Shown here: positions 13,668 through 50,207 of the stretch, piece by piece
Layout: every line of letters begins with the position of its first letter
How positions within the stretch are numbered: the stretch's first letter is position 1
NCBI GenBank assembly: GCA_017481945.1
Contig: JAFUOJ010000017.1
Location: 1-64,000 of the forward strand
Length of the DNA stretch: 64,000 nt
From: Parabacteroides sp.
GTDB lineage: Bacteria; Bacteroidota; Bacteroidia; Bacteroidales; Tannerellaceae
Reading direction: 5' to 3'
The notes under the pieces: model-generated
Databases searched by the model: none
What the model was told of the DNA's origin: nothing
What the model saw: the letters and a program-made list of their open reading frames with translations, nothing else
Translations under genes and position numbers: made by a program

Positions 13668-13757
13668 ATGATTGCGTTGTACACGTATGTTTTTTACGAG
13701 TGTGCTTTCGTTTTATTTATTATTTACCTCGCATTATGCAAAAATATAACATTTTAG
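13668..13757 (+). CDS. Possible 29-aa hydrophobic leader ORF overlapping the rho start
   Basis: ATG at 13668, 29 codons, TAG at 13755-13757, in a different frame from rho and overlapping its first 22 nt. The peptide is hydrophobic ([16 protein letters not shown] in its middle). It lies inside the rho transcript leader. Termination next to the rho start could couple or limit rho translation. No conservation can be seen from one sequence, so this may be a chance ORF. Confidence 0.25.
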
Positions 13758-15775
13758 AGCTGAATGAAAAACTACTTCCTGAATTGCAAAGTATAGCGGA
13801 AGAGTTAGGTATAAAAAAGATAAGTGCTTTGAAAAAAGAAGAGCTTATATATCGAATTCTGGATGAACAAGCTATATCTTATGCAGGTATTCAAGCTGAG
13901 AAGGCAAAAGCTTCTCGTAGAGGTAGACCTCCAAAAGCAAAGAAAGTAGCAGAAGCCCCTGTTGCGAAAGAATCAAGTGAACCCATTGCTGCTGTTGCAG
14001 AACCTGTTGTTACTCCTTCCACTGAACAGCCAGTAGAGGCTACAGCAGAAGTTAAGGCACAACAGCCGGAACGCAAGAAAAGGGTTCGTATAGAAAAGAA
14101 AGAAAAACAGACTCCAAATAAAAGCAGTGAAGATGTTTTAGATTCAAAAGAGATGATTGTCGCTGAAAAAACAGTTGAAGTTTTAGAGGTGGCAAAGGTT
14201 GCTCCTGTAGAGAAAGCTGAATTGAAAAACAAAACTGCTGTAAAAAAGGAAAATAAGATGAATGAAAAGACACTTCTTCCTCCGGTAGTTGCAGAAACCG
14301 GATTTGAAGATAAACAAGTTGAGATTGTAGAAGAGGTTAAAGAGATTAAAGAGGTAAAGGTTGAAGAAGAAATTGCGGAGAAAGCTCCGGAAGTTACTGA
14401 AGAACCGAAACGAATGGTTTTCCGTCATCCGGATACTAAATCAGTTTTAGATCAACTTTTCCCATTCTCATCTACCCCGTCAAAAGTAAGTTCTAAAAAG
14501 TCTAATGAGCAAAATGAAAATGCTCAGCCGCAAAACAATCAGCGTCAGAATAATAATAGACCAAATAATCAGAACAACAATAACAATAATAACAATCAGC
14601 GTAACACCAATACCAACAACGCTCCGCAAGAGAAGCAATATGAGTTTGACGGTATTCTGACCGGTACAGGCGTATTGGAAATGATGCCTGATGGTTATGG
14701 TTTCTTGCGCTCTTCTGATTATAACTATTTGACCTCTCCGGATGATATTTATGTATCACAGTCACAAATCAAATTGTTTGGTTTGAAGACAGGGGATGTC
14801 GTTGAAGGCGCTATTCGTCCGCCGAAAGAGGGTGAGAAATATTTCCCGTTGGTAAAAGTCGATAAGATCAATGGCCGTACACCGGAAGAGGTGCGTGACC
14901 GTGTTCCTTTTGACCACTTGACACCGCTTTTCCCGGATGAAAAGTTTATGCTTACTGCCCGCAAGTCTCCGAAGGTATATGATAACATTGCCGTTCGTGT
15001 CGTTGATTTGTTCTCTCCGATCGGAAAGGGACAGCGTGGTTTGATTGTGGCTCAACCGAAGACTGGTAAGACCATGTTGTTGAAAGATATTGCGAACGCT
15101 ATCGCTGCTAATCACCCGGAGGTTTACATGATTATCCTTTTGATCGACGAACGTCCGGAAGAGGTAACCGATATGGCCCGCAGCGTAGACGCTGAAGTAA
15201 TTGCTTCTACTTTCGACGAACCGGCAGAACGCCACGTGAAGATTGCCGAAATCGTATTGAACAAGGCAAAACGTATGGTTGAATGCGGACATGACGTAGT
15301 GATTTTGTTGGACTCTATCACCCGTTTGGCTCGTGCTTACAATACAGTACAGCCGGCTTCAGGTAAGGTACTTTCCGGTGGTGTGGACGCGAACGCGTTG
15401 CAAAAACCGAAACGTTTCTTCGGGGCAGCTCGTAACATTGAGAATGGCGGTAGCTTGACAATCTTGGCTACGGCTTTGACTGAGACCGGCTCTAAGATGG
15501 ATGATGTTATCTTTGAAGAATTCAAGGGTACCGGTAACATGGAGTTGCAGTTAGACCGCAAGTTGGCGAATAAACGTGTTTATCCGGCTGTGGATATTAC
15601 TGCTTCCAGCACGCGCCGCGATGATTTGTTGCAGGATGAAAGTACAGTGAATCGTATGTGGATCTTGCGTAAGTATTTGGCAGACATGAACTCTATCGAA
15701 GCAATGGAATTTGTTAAACAGCGCATGGAACAGACGTTTGACAATATGGAATTCCTCGCTTCCATGAACGGATAA
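13736..15775 (+). CDS. rho: Transcription termination factor Rho with long disordered insert
   Basis: RNA-dependent ATPase hexamer that ends transcription. Residues 1-47 are the N-terminal helix bundle ([20 protein letters not shown]). About 50-300 is low complexity: Lys/Glu/Val/Ala-rich at first, then Asn/Gln-rich with eight Asn in a row (codons 14573-14596). From about 302 the conserved body begins: cold-shock RNA-binding domain (DGYGFLRS), Walker A (QPKTGKT, about 440), Walker B ([14 protein letters not shown], about 525), Q/R-loops ([21 protein letters not shown]). ATG 13736 is chosen over an upstream GTG at 13700 because the fold starts there. At 679 aa it is far longer than the 419 aa of E. 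coli Rho, because of the insert. Confidence 0.97.
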
Positions 15776-15799: not shown

Positions 15800-15855
15800 A
15801 GAATGGTCCAATCTTGTATCACTCAAAACGATGTGATACAAGATTGGGCCATTCT
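15800..15855 (+). terminator. Long hairpin terminator of rho, formed by the first two array units
   Basis: A 23-bp stem with one G-T pair: its left arm starts AGAATGGTCCAATCTTG at 15800, its right arm ends CAAGATTGGGCCATTCT at 15855, and the loop is 10 nt. The arms contain units 0 and 1 of the 41-bp-pitch array. TTTTG follows. Confidence 0.75.
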
Positions 15856-16060
15856 TTTGTTACAACATTTTTTTTGATCCAAGAATGGGGCATTCTGCTG
15901 TCAATTTGTTTTTTTAGATACCAGAATGCAGCATTCTAAGGTCAAAAATTTTGAAAAGAAAGAAGAATGCAGCGTTCTTGCGTCTCTCTGTTTGAAAAGA
16001 AAAAAGAATGCCACATTCTCGTGTCCCTTTGTTTAAATAGAGAGGAGAATGCAGCATTCT
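15800..16060. repeat. Array of seven 15-bp palindromes at exact 41-bp pitch (AGAATGCnGCATTCT)
   Basis: Unit centres are at 15807, 15848, 15889, 15930, 15971, 16012 and 16053, each 41 bp from the next. Units in order: AGAATGGTCCAATCT, AGATTGGGCCATTCT, AGAATGGGGCATTCT, AGAATGCAGCATTCT, AGAATGCAGCGTTCT, AGAATGCCACATTCT, AGAATGCAGCATTCT. The 26-bp spacers are diverged but several keep GTC at spacer positions 4-6 and TTGTTT or a variant at about 10-15, so they look like decayed copies of one 41-bp unit. The array fills the 309-bp tail-to-tail gap between rho and the GH106-like gene; no gene is visible in it. Confidence 0.93.
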
Positions 16061-33725: not shown

Positions 33726-35219
33726 ATGATAAGAAATTTGAAATTACTGATTGCTTTTTGGCTCCTTCAAAGCTGCTGGATGGCAGGATTCGCAAAAGAT
33801 TACTTTGTGACGGATTTTGGAGCAAAAGGGGATGGAATCACATTAAATACGACAATTATTCAGAAAGCCATTGATTTTGCAAATGAAAATGGAGGTGGAC
33901 GTGTCGTTTTTACTCCCGGTAACTTCGTGACGGGGACTATCTATCTTAAGTCAAACGTGACGCTGCATTTGGAAGCCGGTGCGACTATTTTAGCTTCGAC
34001 AAATCCTTGGGATTTTGTGAAAGAAAGTTGTGTGAACTGGACTTCGATGATATTTGCCATAAAACAGACCAATATTGGTATAACCGGCAAAGGAACAATC
34101 AACGGAAGAGGATTTATTACAGCAAATAATCTGGTTGATTACATTCATCGCGGATTGTTTAAAGATCCGATGAAGTTAGACCGCCCGTATGAAGGAAACC
34201 GACATCAGAACATCTATTTCCGCGAATGCACGAATGTAACGGTTCAAGATATTACCTTAAAAGATCCTGCCAGCTGGAATCAGACATACGATCAGTGTAA
34301 AAATGTCTTGGTCGAAAGAGAAAAAGTCGATAGCAAGTCCTATTGGAATAATGATGGCATTGACATTATCGACTGTGAAGATGTGGTGATTCGGGATTGC
34401 TATATCGACGCGGCAGATGATGTTTTTTGCTTCAAATCTCATGATTTTAAGGGCAGTTGCAAGAATGTACTGTTGGAAAACTGTGTCGGTCGTTCAAGTG
34501 CAAGCGGTATTAAATTCGGTACGGTCTCTCGAGGAGAATTTAAGAACTTCAAGATTCGTAACGTGACGATGTACGACACCTATCGCTCTGCCATTACGTT
34601 TGCTGCGGTTGACGGTGCTGAAATAGAGAATATCGAGGTTGACGGCGTTCGCGCTTATCATACCGGAAACGTTATTTTCCTTCGTACAGGCCGTCGTTGG
34701 AACAGAGGAAAAGAGCCTTATATGAGAAACATTGTCATCAAAAATGTTTATGCCGAAGTTCCTATGGATAAGCCGGACGCAGGATATAGCTACGAAGGAC
34801 CGATAGAAGATTTGCCTCGTAACATATCTCCGGCAAGTATTGTAGGGTTGCCTGATTGCAAAATACAAGATGTAAGGATGGAGAATATCGAAATCGTAAC
34901 TTGCGGAGGCGGTAATCCGTTGTATGCTTATCGCGGTTTGACACCGGCAGATTTGGATAGTATTCCGGAGATGGAATCCACCTATCCGGAGTTCTCTCAA
35001 TTTAAGGAGTTGCCTGCTTGGGGCTTTTATATCCGTCATGCGGAAGGTATTACCTTTAATAATGTAAAGTTTAAAGCTTTGAAAAAGGATTACCGTCCGG
35101 CTATAGTAACAGACGATGTAAATGGGCTGGTATTGAAAAACGTAGAGTTTAAAGAACCGGAAAGTGACAAAAAAGAGCAAGTGTTTACGTATAAAACGGA
35201 AGGCGTAGTTATAGAATAG
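33726..35219 (+). CDS. GH28-family (polygalacturonase-like) enzyme
   Basis: 497 aa with a signal peptide (ending near AGFAKDYF). The mature N-terminus VTDFGAKGDGITLNTTIIQK is the GH28 parallel beta-helix entry. Catalytic-site parts NNDGIDIIDCED and AADDVFCFKS supply the Asp residues of the family. The normal GHG segment is replaced by SSASGIKFGT, so the usual histidine is missing; many Bacteroidota GH28-like proteins share this and may act on other pectic or rhamnogalacturonan linkages. Single gene with no close exact promoter. Its terminator is the first complete unit of the 41-bp-pitch array. Confidence 0.85.
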   Translation: MIRNLKLLIAFWLLQSCWMAGFAKDYFVTDFGAKGDGITLNTTIIQKAIDFANENGGGRVVFTPGNFVTGTIYLKSNVTLHLEAGATILASTNPWDFVKESCVNWTSMIFAIKQTNIGITGKGTINGRGFITANNLVDYIHRGLFKDPMKLDRPYEGNRHQNIYFRECTNVTVQDITLKDPASWNQTYDQCKNVLVEREKVDSKSYWNNDGIDIIDCEDVVIRDCYIDAADDVFCFKSHDFKGSCKNVLLENCVGRSSASGIKFGTVSRGEFKNFKIRNVTMYDTYRSAITFAAVDGAEIENIEVDGVRAYHTGNVIFLRTGRRWNRGKEPYMRNIVIKNVYAEVPMDKPDAGYSYEGPIEDLPRNISPASIVGLPDCKIQDVRMENIEIVTCGGGNPLYAYRGLTPADLDSIPEMESTYPEFSQFKELPAWGFYIRHAEGITFNNVKFKALKKDYRPAIVTDDVNGLVLKNVEFKEPESDKKEQVFTYKTEGVVIE

Positions 35220-35221
35220 TT

Positions 35222-35514
35222 GTAGAATCCTTTTAAAACGTGTTTCTCATGCTTTCTACCTGGTAGAATCCTTGGGAAACACGTTTTTTGTGTTTTCTAC
35301 GATGTAGAATTTATAAATGTTGACATTCTACTGTTTTCTACATTGTAGAATTAGTAAATTTTGACGTTTTTGTCTTTTCTACATTGTAGAATTAACAGAA
35401 ATTGGTTTTCTCACATTTTCTACGATGTAGAAACCACAAATTACATGATTTGTGAGCTTTCTACACCGTAGAATCTGCTAACTACGCCGCTTTTATCTTT
35501 TCTACTTTGAAGAA
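35222..35514. repeat. Array of seven complete 15-bp palindromes at exact 41-bp pitch (TTCTACnnnGTAGAA)
   Basis: Unit centres are at 35261, 35302, 35343, 35384, 35425, 35466 and 35507, every step exactly 41 bp; a right half-unit GTAGAA at 35222-35227 fits a further centre at 35220. Middles are CTG, GAT, ATT, ATT, GAT, ACC and TTT; only the last unit has an arm mismatch (GAAGAA). The 26-bp spacers are mostly diverged, with TTGAC kept in two. The array fills the 324-bp tail-to-tail gap between the GH28 and HIT genes, in which no gene is visible. Confidence 0.95.
35235..35287 (+). terminator. Terminator of the GH28 gene centred on array unit 1
   Basis: AAAACGTGTTTC (35235-35246) pairs with GAAACACGTTTT (35276-35287), enclosing the palindrome TTCTACCTGGTAGAA; both share the centre 35261. 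T6 follows. Confidence 0.75.
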
Positions 35515-35543
35515 TGAATATTCGTTGTGTTGTGGAATGAATT

Positions 35544-35978
35544 TTACAATGCCGCTTTGATCTTTTCGATCATTTCTTGGTATTCGCTATCCGATAAATA
35601 GACTTTCTGCGGATTCATCGTAAATGTACCTCCGAAATCGGGACCGTCTTCATACTTTGGAGCCAAATGGAAATGAAGATGGGAGAGTTTGTCCGAATAG
35701 GCACCGTAATTGATCTTTTGAGGATTAAACACCTTCTGCATTGCCCGCGTCACACGTACAACATCTGCCATGAATGCGTTTCGCTCTTCATCACTCAACT
35801 GGTTTAAATCATGTACATGATCTTTATACGAGACTAAACAACGGCCGTAGTAGGTTTGTTCCTTGAATAAGAAAAGTCTGGAAACGGACAAAGGAGCAAT
35901 TTCAATCATCAGATCATGTAAAGTCTGATTATTCTGGCAATACAAACAATCTTTAGGATCACTTAGTTTCATGTTCAT
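35544..35978 (-). CDS. HIT family protein
   Basis: 144 aa with the histidine triad HLHFHLAPK (HxHxHxxP) at about 100-108 and the usual N-terminal half (CLYCQNN ... LFKEQTYYGRCLVSYKDHVHDLNQL). HIT proteins hydrolyse nucleotide phosphoramidates and dinucleoside polyphosphates. C12 and C15 could be half of a zinc site, as in the HINT/Fhit-like bacterial group. An in-frame ATG two codons in (MKLSDPKD) is an equally good start. Divergent from the CNNM gene. Confidence 0.92.
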   Translation of the reverse strand: MNMKLSDPKDCLYCQNNQTLHDLMIEIAPLSVSRLFLFKEQTYYGRCLVSYKDHVHDLNQLSDEERNAFMADVVRVTRAMQKVFNPQKINYGAYSDKLSHLHFHLAPKYEDGPDFGGTFTMNPQKVYLSDSEYQEMIEKIKAAL

Positions 35979-50120: not shown

Positions 50121-50207
50121 AAAAAAGTCTAAACTTTTTCTCCAAAAAGTCTAAACATTTTTACAAAAAAGTCTGGACATTTTCTGAAAAAAGTCCAGAC
50201 TTTTTTG
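50121..50207. repeat. Four tandem 22-bp repeats with GTC..GAC palindromic cores
   Basis: Cores GTCTAAAC, GTCTAAAC, GTCTGGAC and GTCCAGAC have centres at 50130.5, 50152.5, 50174.5 and 50196.5, an exact 22-bp pitch. Each is flanked by A5-6 on the left and a T4-6-rich run on the right; the last is a perfect 20-bp palindrome (AAAAAAGTCC/AGACTTTTTT with centre CA) and could terminate transcription in either direction. A decayed unit (GGCTAAAA) fits one step upstream. Bases 50208-50294 hold nothing I can identify. Confidence 0.85.

Follow-up and report, generated by a model that had tools for sequence, protein, structure and literature searches.

A dispersed palindromic array of 41-bp pitch behind a GH28 gene of Parabacteroides sp., and arrays of unrelated sequence with similar periods in its relatives

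Background

The closest described counterparts of the array reported here are tandem repeats of Porphyromonas gingivalis: in the accessible text of Klein et al. 2015 (PMC4596501), BrickBuilt elements consist of 23-nt and MITE464/PgRS elements of 41-nt repeats, and tandem repeats of 41, 23 and 22 nt are cited for strain W83. As far as that text goes, these 22-, 23- and 41-nt units are described as repeats of the species P. gingivalis, some lying within MITEs; BrickBuilt, for which stem-loops are predicted, matched only P. gingivalis in default BLAST searches and has homologues in P. gulae. Another comparable group comprises the REP and BIME elements, which are short, clustered intergenic palindromes, those of the GTAG type carrying their tag unpaired according to the accessible part of PMC3733652. 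The accessible portions of a literature taken largely without subscription papers (PMC4596501, PMC5771137, PMC12306157, PMC3733652, PMC2267715) hold no account of the Parabacteroides arrays described below.

The array lies in a 64,000-nt stretch of Parabacteroides sp. DNA (GCA_017481945.1, contig JAFUOJ010000017.1, positions 1 to 64,000), which is here called the window. Like BrickBuilt and PgRS, as described in the accessible text of PMC4596501, the arrays of this genome are intergenic, repeat in tandem with units of 23 or 41 nt and occur as several dispersed copies: a TTCTAC family occupies the loci C6, C1 and C5, and three loci carry a 23-bp CTACTTA family. Unlike the MITEs of that account, the window array was not found to be bounded by terminal inverted repeats of the IS5 type: the pattern GAGACYNTTGCA, with up to 2 mismatches, was not found between 31972 and 41793, and its 26 matches in the window compare with 24.6 expected by chance. 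The present analysis goes beyond the same account in measuring 15-bp dyads and unit-by-unit paralogy, and beyond P. gingivalis in recording arrays of these periods, unrelated in sequence, from further Bacteroidales (21-24 bp) and from two more genomes of the genus to which the window belongs (41-42 bp). On the whole, the window array is close in kind to the BrickBuilt/PgRS repeats and is filed as a variant rather than a member. The first-pass annotation of this DNA had noted neither the 22-23 bp period class nor the occurrence of the same periods in P. gingivalis (PMC4596501, in its accessible text).

Results and discussion

Anatomy of the array

The array occupies the interval between two genes that face each other:
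33726..35219, + strand: GH28 gene (glycoside hydrolase family 28; Pfam PF00295), with orthologues at L027 (80%) and L029 (79%)
35213..35514, no strand assigned: 41-bp-pitch array of 15-bp dyads TTCTAC-n3-GTAGAA, with a half unit, six perfect units and one imperfect unit (copy C6)
35544..35978, - strand: convergent gene for a HIT-domain protein (Pfam PF01230), its stop 29 bp from the last array unit

The units, of the form TTCTACnnnGTAGAA, follow one another at steps of exactly 41 bp. Perfect dyads, with 6-bp arms around a 3-bp middle, start at 35254, 35295, 35336, 35377, 35418 and 35459, and a seventh unit starting at 35500, TTCTACTTTGAAGAA, has one broken pair, so that the centres of the full units run from 35261 to 35507. 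The right arm GTAGAA at 35222-35227 represents a half unit fitting a centre at 35220; the array begins at the GH28 stop codon (35217-35219), and its full units lie 34 and 29 bp from the flanking stops. This agrees with the first-pass annotation, which had recognized seven full units at exact 41-bp steps, a right half-unit and arms intact in all units but one, at the same coordinates. It had further proposed that intact arms beside varied middles demonstrate maintenance of dyad symmetry. For the window array taken alone this is overstated, because the arm letters are identical in all intact units, and hence the array by itself is no proof that symmetry rather than sequence is kept.

With a loop of 3, this array and a second one at 15800 each form a run of seven dyads at one pitch, whereas none of 20 dinucleotide-shuffled versions of the window produced as many as four. 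The possibility, raised beforehand, that shuffled sequence might yield such arrays was thus borne out in 0 of 20 cases, and the search without any given sequence that had been proposed alongside it did uncover further arrays. A search of Rfam with window 35000-35700 gave 15 matches up to an E value of 5, none of them at its gathering score, and a known RNA family was accordingly rejected; a plasmid origin was also considered and found no match.

Like CRISPR arrays, in which short palindromic repeats alternate with spacers of constant length, the window array combines a palindromic repeat with a constant-length spacer. Unlike them, it has a 15-bp repeat with a variable middle, and its spacers, rather than being unrelated sequences between identical repeats, are partly related to one another and common to the copies C6 and C1.

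Paralogous copies in the same genome

The window array, which the first-pass annotation had treated singly, belongs to a family found at three or more loci of this genome, namely C6 in the window, C1 and C5. A fourth match is weak, covering 26 bp within a variant array on contig C4 (L218). C1 is a paralogue of the entire array: the two correspond unit by unit, ungapped through the units, and their similarity ends at the array ends, where neither terminal inverted repeats nor target duplications were observed. They differ at 5 of 90 arm sites, 10 of 23 middle sites and 34 of 182 spacer sites (arms versus spacers, Fisher p 0.003). C5 consists of units that are almost identical and in the same register; its best match to the window array is on the opposite strand (73% over 205 columns). 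A whole-array paralogue thus exists elsewhere in the genome, and between C6 and C1 the arms have been kept while the middle has changed most. The constraint that this suggests for the arms rests mainly on the single paralogue pair C6-C1. The earlier description of both middles and spacers as variable needs a qualification for the spacers, which do not vary freely: the seven comparable same-index spacers of C6 and C1 are 65-92% identical.

Among 37 other genomes of the genus none matched the TTCTAC array, and among 59 other genomes of the phylum sample none matched a two-unit TTCTAC pattern, with each species represented by one genome. The assembly itself is 83% complete with an estimated contamination of 5%, and 30% of the genome was read for arrays. 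A resistance of the pitch to indels was considered and dropped: the ratio of gaps to substitutions, 72:768 in arrays against 17:77 in a small control, depends on alignment settings, and C6 and C1 themselves show 2 gaps in one alignment and none within the array in another.

We consider the chances about even that the window array represents a dispersed palindromic minisatellite, non-coding and private to the species, with dyads and a period that matter in DNA.

The clustering of intergenic palindromes near gene ends also recalls REP/BIME elements mobilised by a RAYT transposase. The units here, however, have a fixed pitch and private arm sequences, and no Y1 transposase was found in the genome: PF01797 (Y1 transposase, RAYT) has 0 matches in this 83%-complete assembly (G000), while it is positive in 41 of 60 genomes of the order. 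Unlike in the GTAG and CGTC REPs, as presented in the accessible part of PMC3733652, the letters GTAG sit inside the paired arm and do not form an unpaired tag, and inspection by eye found no unpaired GTAG or CGTC tag beside the arms of the TTCTAC units. A REP/RAYT origin is therefore highly improbable and was rejected on the absence of PF01797.

The array after rho and other arm families

A second array of the same pitch lies elsewhere in the window, behind the gene for rho:
13700..15775, + strand: rho gene (Pfam PF07497, PF07498), upstream of the AGAATG array
15800..16060, no strand assigned: second 41-bp array, AGAATG-n3-CATTCT, 7 units

It shares its pitch and not its sequence with the GH28 array, as had been stated before. 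A long terminator-like hairpin (dG -38.5) has the first two units of this array in its arms, and the RNA fold of the array has a z of -10.4. In total, the 41-bp arrays of this genome employ three arm sequences, [AT]TCTAC/GTAGA[AT], AGAATG/CATTCT and TTCCAG/CTGGAA, which are unrelated in their letters and identical in their 15-bp, 6-3-6 dyad geometry.

The slot after rho was matched in 35 of 38 genomes of the genus, and the 30 loci returned were scanned without a shuffle control. At this slot genome G033 carries a 41-bp array of another sequence, about TTCAGAG-n-CTCTGAA (L250:2185-2445), and genome G025 a 22-bp array of different sequence (L230:2125-2208); of the remaining 27 slots, 26 were without a hit and L233 had a marginal one, of three units at 15 bp. 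The G033 array belongs to a dispersed 41-bp family with 13 matches in G033 and 1 weak match in G025, and 0 in either the present genome or G036. A tentative and rather doubtful extension of these observations is that the arrays constitute a non-coding class of Bacteroidales in which geometry, namely a dyad recurring every two or four helical turns, is inherited while the letters are replaced species by species, even after rho.

Other families occur as well. A 22-bp family is found at three loci of this genome, in the window and at L015:19754-19839 and L205:6141-6227:
50123..50204, no strand assigned: 22-bp-pitch array AAAAGT-n4-ACTTTT, 4 units

The 23-bp CTACTTA family lies between convergent genes at L015:12403-12565, tandem genes at L023:12537-12698 and divergent genes at L222:4052-4237, with short flanks in common. 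In G036, L132:2101-2241 is a 42-bp array of four units, TTTAAACACTTTAAA, in which another dyad, rich in GC, stands roughly half a period off.

Period classes across genomes

The dyad scan accepted 6-bp arms with at least 5 pairs, a middle of 0-9 bp and any pitch from 14 to 130 bp; on shuffled sequence it found no arrays. Within this genome it detected 11 arrays in 409 kb and a further 9 in a second 400 kb. Other Parabacteroides gave 2 (506 kb), named Bacteroidales loci 14 (1.30 Mb) and other families of the order 1 (381 kb). G033 and G036, two genomes chosen because an earlier scan had already shown arrays there, gave 17 and 10, from 200 kb each. The finder detected 0 in 165 kb of the class and 0 in 163 kb of the phylum (328 kb together), and 0 in 100 kb of E. 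coli K-12, a small control whose empty result implies that the dyad finder is no detector of REP/BIME clusters. Of these 64 arrays, which leave out two picked for their motif (L005, L006), 57 fall into two pitch classes, 35 at 21-24 bp and 22 at 41-42 bp; the other seven have pitches of 14, 45, 69 (three, inside one long open frame), 83 and 108, and none lies at 25 to 40. Members of the 41-42 class came from this genome, G033 and G036 alone. Several of those at 42 bp may be coding, because a period divisible by three keeps frames open; when the 21 arrays in a long open frame are dropped, 42 of 45 remain in the two classes, a count that includes L005 and L006. G033 and G036 (L253-L272) are very rich in dyad arrays, with many 42-bp ones of ambiguous coding status. 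The 69-bp repeats at L060:11846-13451 lie within one open frame of 3,492 nt and are probably a coding repeat of another kind than these arrays.

Repeats called by TRF outside ORFs, with at least 2.5 copies and no dyad required, gave a related picture. Periods of 21-23 or 41-42 account for 17 of 18 repeats in this genome, and periods of 21-24 or 41-42 for 12 of 14 in G033, 8 of 9 in G036, 6 of 8 in other Parabacteroides, 4 of 5 in other families of the order and 1 of 4 in the class and phylum. In Bacteroidaceae and Prevotella, 32 of 53 belong to the 21-24 class and none to 41-42, and no repeats were found in E. coli. The two classes are thus less sharp in Bacteroidaceae and Prevotella and do not show in the rest of the phylum, which speaks against a general two-period rule.

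That two periods are common to many sequences, including repeats without a dyad in their consensus, might be taken to mean that the arrays are functionless, neutral by-products of replication slippage at chance hairpins, the pitch reflecting a slipping mode of the polymerase. The nearly identical units of C5 look as expected after a recent expansion of this kind. Since the split of C6 and C1, however, the arms have been kept while middles and spacers drifted, and the copy of a whole array at another locus demands more than slippage. We also know of no slippage rule that yields both 22-23 and 41-42, and on the whole consider a neutral origin improbable.

Pairing of the dyads and the phase of the pitch

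Evidence for symmetry as the feature that is kept comes from the larger set: across 34 arrays with 159 units, arm pairs changed on both sides number 17, whereas 500 re-dealings averaged 9.0 and never exceeded 15, a count to be read with the proviso that the finder demanded 5 of 6 pairs and was biased toward paired units. The three positions beside the arms pair no more than by chance (41 of 150 in the 41-bp arrays of this genome). Further out, at positions 4-7 from the arms, pairing stands at 0.42-0.47 without being specific to the unit. No unit-specific pairing past the 6-bp arms was found overall, L219 alone, at 0.03, being perhaps an exception. Across the arrays of relatives, spacing and symmetry seem to be kept more than sequence.

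This pattern is compatible with the dyads serving as sites for a putative dimeric DNA-binding or nucleoid protein, helically phased by the 41-bp pitch. Such a role would fit the excess of both-side arm changes over re-dealt controls, the chance-level pairing next to the arms, the recurrence of one 6-3-6 geometry in the 15-bp dyads of three sequence families of one genome, and pitches near two or four helical turns with none at 25 to 40. Nevertheless, arms that are private to a species and of several kinds per genome would need several fast-changing proteins, the partial pairing at positions 4-7 is out of keeping with it, and pitches of 22-24 fit poorly to 10.5 bp per turn; hence we place this explanation on the unlikely side.

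In 14 of 28 arrays, where 2.3 would be expected, the second-best dyad lies within 1 bp of half the pitch, although only 5 of the 28 are individually significant, 9 of the 28 are 42-bp arrays and maybe coding, and rows of the same family are not independent. The window array is not among the significant ones (0.57 of permutations reach its value). Among the 41-bp arrays 9 of 19, from two families, show such a dyad, and in an earlier test C5 alone gave a clear signal (11 of 500 permutations). The half-pitch dyad is a lead, not a result.

Transcript ends and gene settings

The first full unit is embedded in a candidate transcript end:
35234..35288, + strand: terminator-like hairpin around the first full unit, followed by a T-run; predicted 3' end of the GH28 transcript (dG -25.6 kcal/mol)

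A hairpin and T-run are thus present on the sense strand after a stop codon, as in intrinsic terminators, and the RNA fold of the whole array has a z of -12.4 on the + and -8.4 on the - strand. The window array therefore probably also ends the GH28 transcript, as judged from the predicted fold. The hairpin at 35234-35288 explains one or two units and not the whole array, and unlike intrinsic terminators the array has seven to eight repeats at a fixed pitch.

An array acting entirely as RNA, be it as a bidirectional terminator or as a set of hairpins stabilising the 3' end of mRNA, would accord with the stops 34 and 29 bp away on its two sides and with the strong RNA folds. It would also accord with the T-run hairpins found inside 6 of the 11 arrays that lie within 60 bp of a stop in this genome (both 41-bp arrays of the window, L023, L214, L218 and L219), and with the position of arrays in tandem genes, which are closer to the upstream stop than to the downstream start in 10 of 11 cases here (sign test by hand, p 0.006, with ORFs called mechanically) and 4 of 5 elsewhere. 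Against this, the other five near-stop arrays (L013, L018, L020, L024, L204) lack a T-run hairpin, and an ordinary terminator precedes the array at L006 and L215 and, by eye, at L250. Members of the same families also lie between divergent ORFs, at L005, where the left ORF has no Pfam match, and at L222, where the genes are supported by Pfam. The sense-strand mismatches of tandem arrays (7 G-T, 11 A-C and 16 others) show no RNA wobble bias, and pairing is not extended in a unit-specific manner past the arms, except perhaps at L219. A purely RNA-level role is thus unlikely, and the window array is not only a terminator.

The convergent setting of the window array is found in 5 of the 19 placeable arrays among the 21 of this genome and in 2 of 9 elsewhere, by which a location restricted to convergent genes was rejected. 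Convergent intervals make up 0.115 of gaps of at least 100 bp (p 0.06) and 0.149 of intergenic bases (p 0.14), and an excess of arrays between convergent genes is suggestive only.

The GH28-HIT junction

Six Parabacteroides records match the HIT protein at 90-94% identity, which places the genome with that genus. A GH28 orthologue was present at L027 and L029 among the 14 loci compared. At these two, GH28 is followed by two more genes (759 and 1,467 nt), a plain hairpin terminator and then HIT; both genes and the plain terminator are absent from the window. Because the relatives that lack the array differ from the window by two whole genes at this junction, a comparison of filled and empty sites, or for a target-site duplication, lacks a clean empty site. 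In the relatives the GH28 orthologue ends in TATAGAATAA (window 35200-35230 against L027:7800-7820), which is close to the array arm GTAGAAT, and the short stretch common to the two may have guided the junction between GH28 and the array.

Origin and implications

A dispersed minisatellite whose dyads and period matter at the level of DNA is preferred because a terminator does not account for all the observations, the arms covary, the adjoining letters pair no more than by chance and the dyad periods lie near two or four turns, with none from 25 to 40. Its units would persist because it is important in DNA to have a dyad recurring at a constant distance, roughly two or four helical turns: a small hairpin or cruciform might drive in-register duplication and correction of the arms or, alternatively, the dyads might be putative dimer-binding sites. 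Arrays would settle mostly just after stop codons, as such places presumably tolerate insertion, and may then take over as transcript ends, for example at GH28, which lacks the downstream genes and terminator of its orthologues. Several points count against the minisatellite reading: terminal inverted repeats and target duplications went unseen at the paralogue ends, most other samples yielded few dyad arrays or none, no transposase was identified, and the reading by itself is silent on the preference for 41-42 and 21-24.

The same period classes recur here in unrelated sequences of private families whose dyad arms are conserved, which suggests that repeat length in Bacteroidales is set by some shared process. 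The arrays raise the testable questions of what sets a period near two and four helical turns, and of whether they end transcripts, bind protein or hold supercoils. If geometry is indeed inherited while the letters are replaced, this would hint at some process or protein of the host that recognises or generates helical phase, not sequence.
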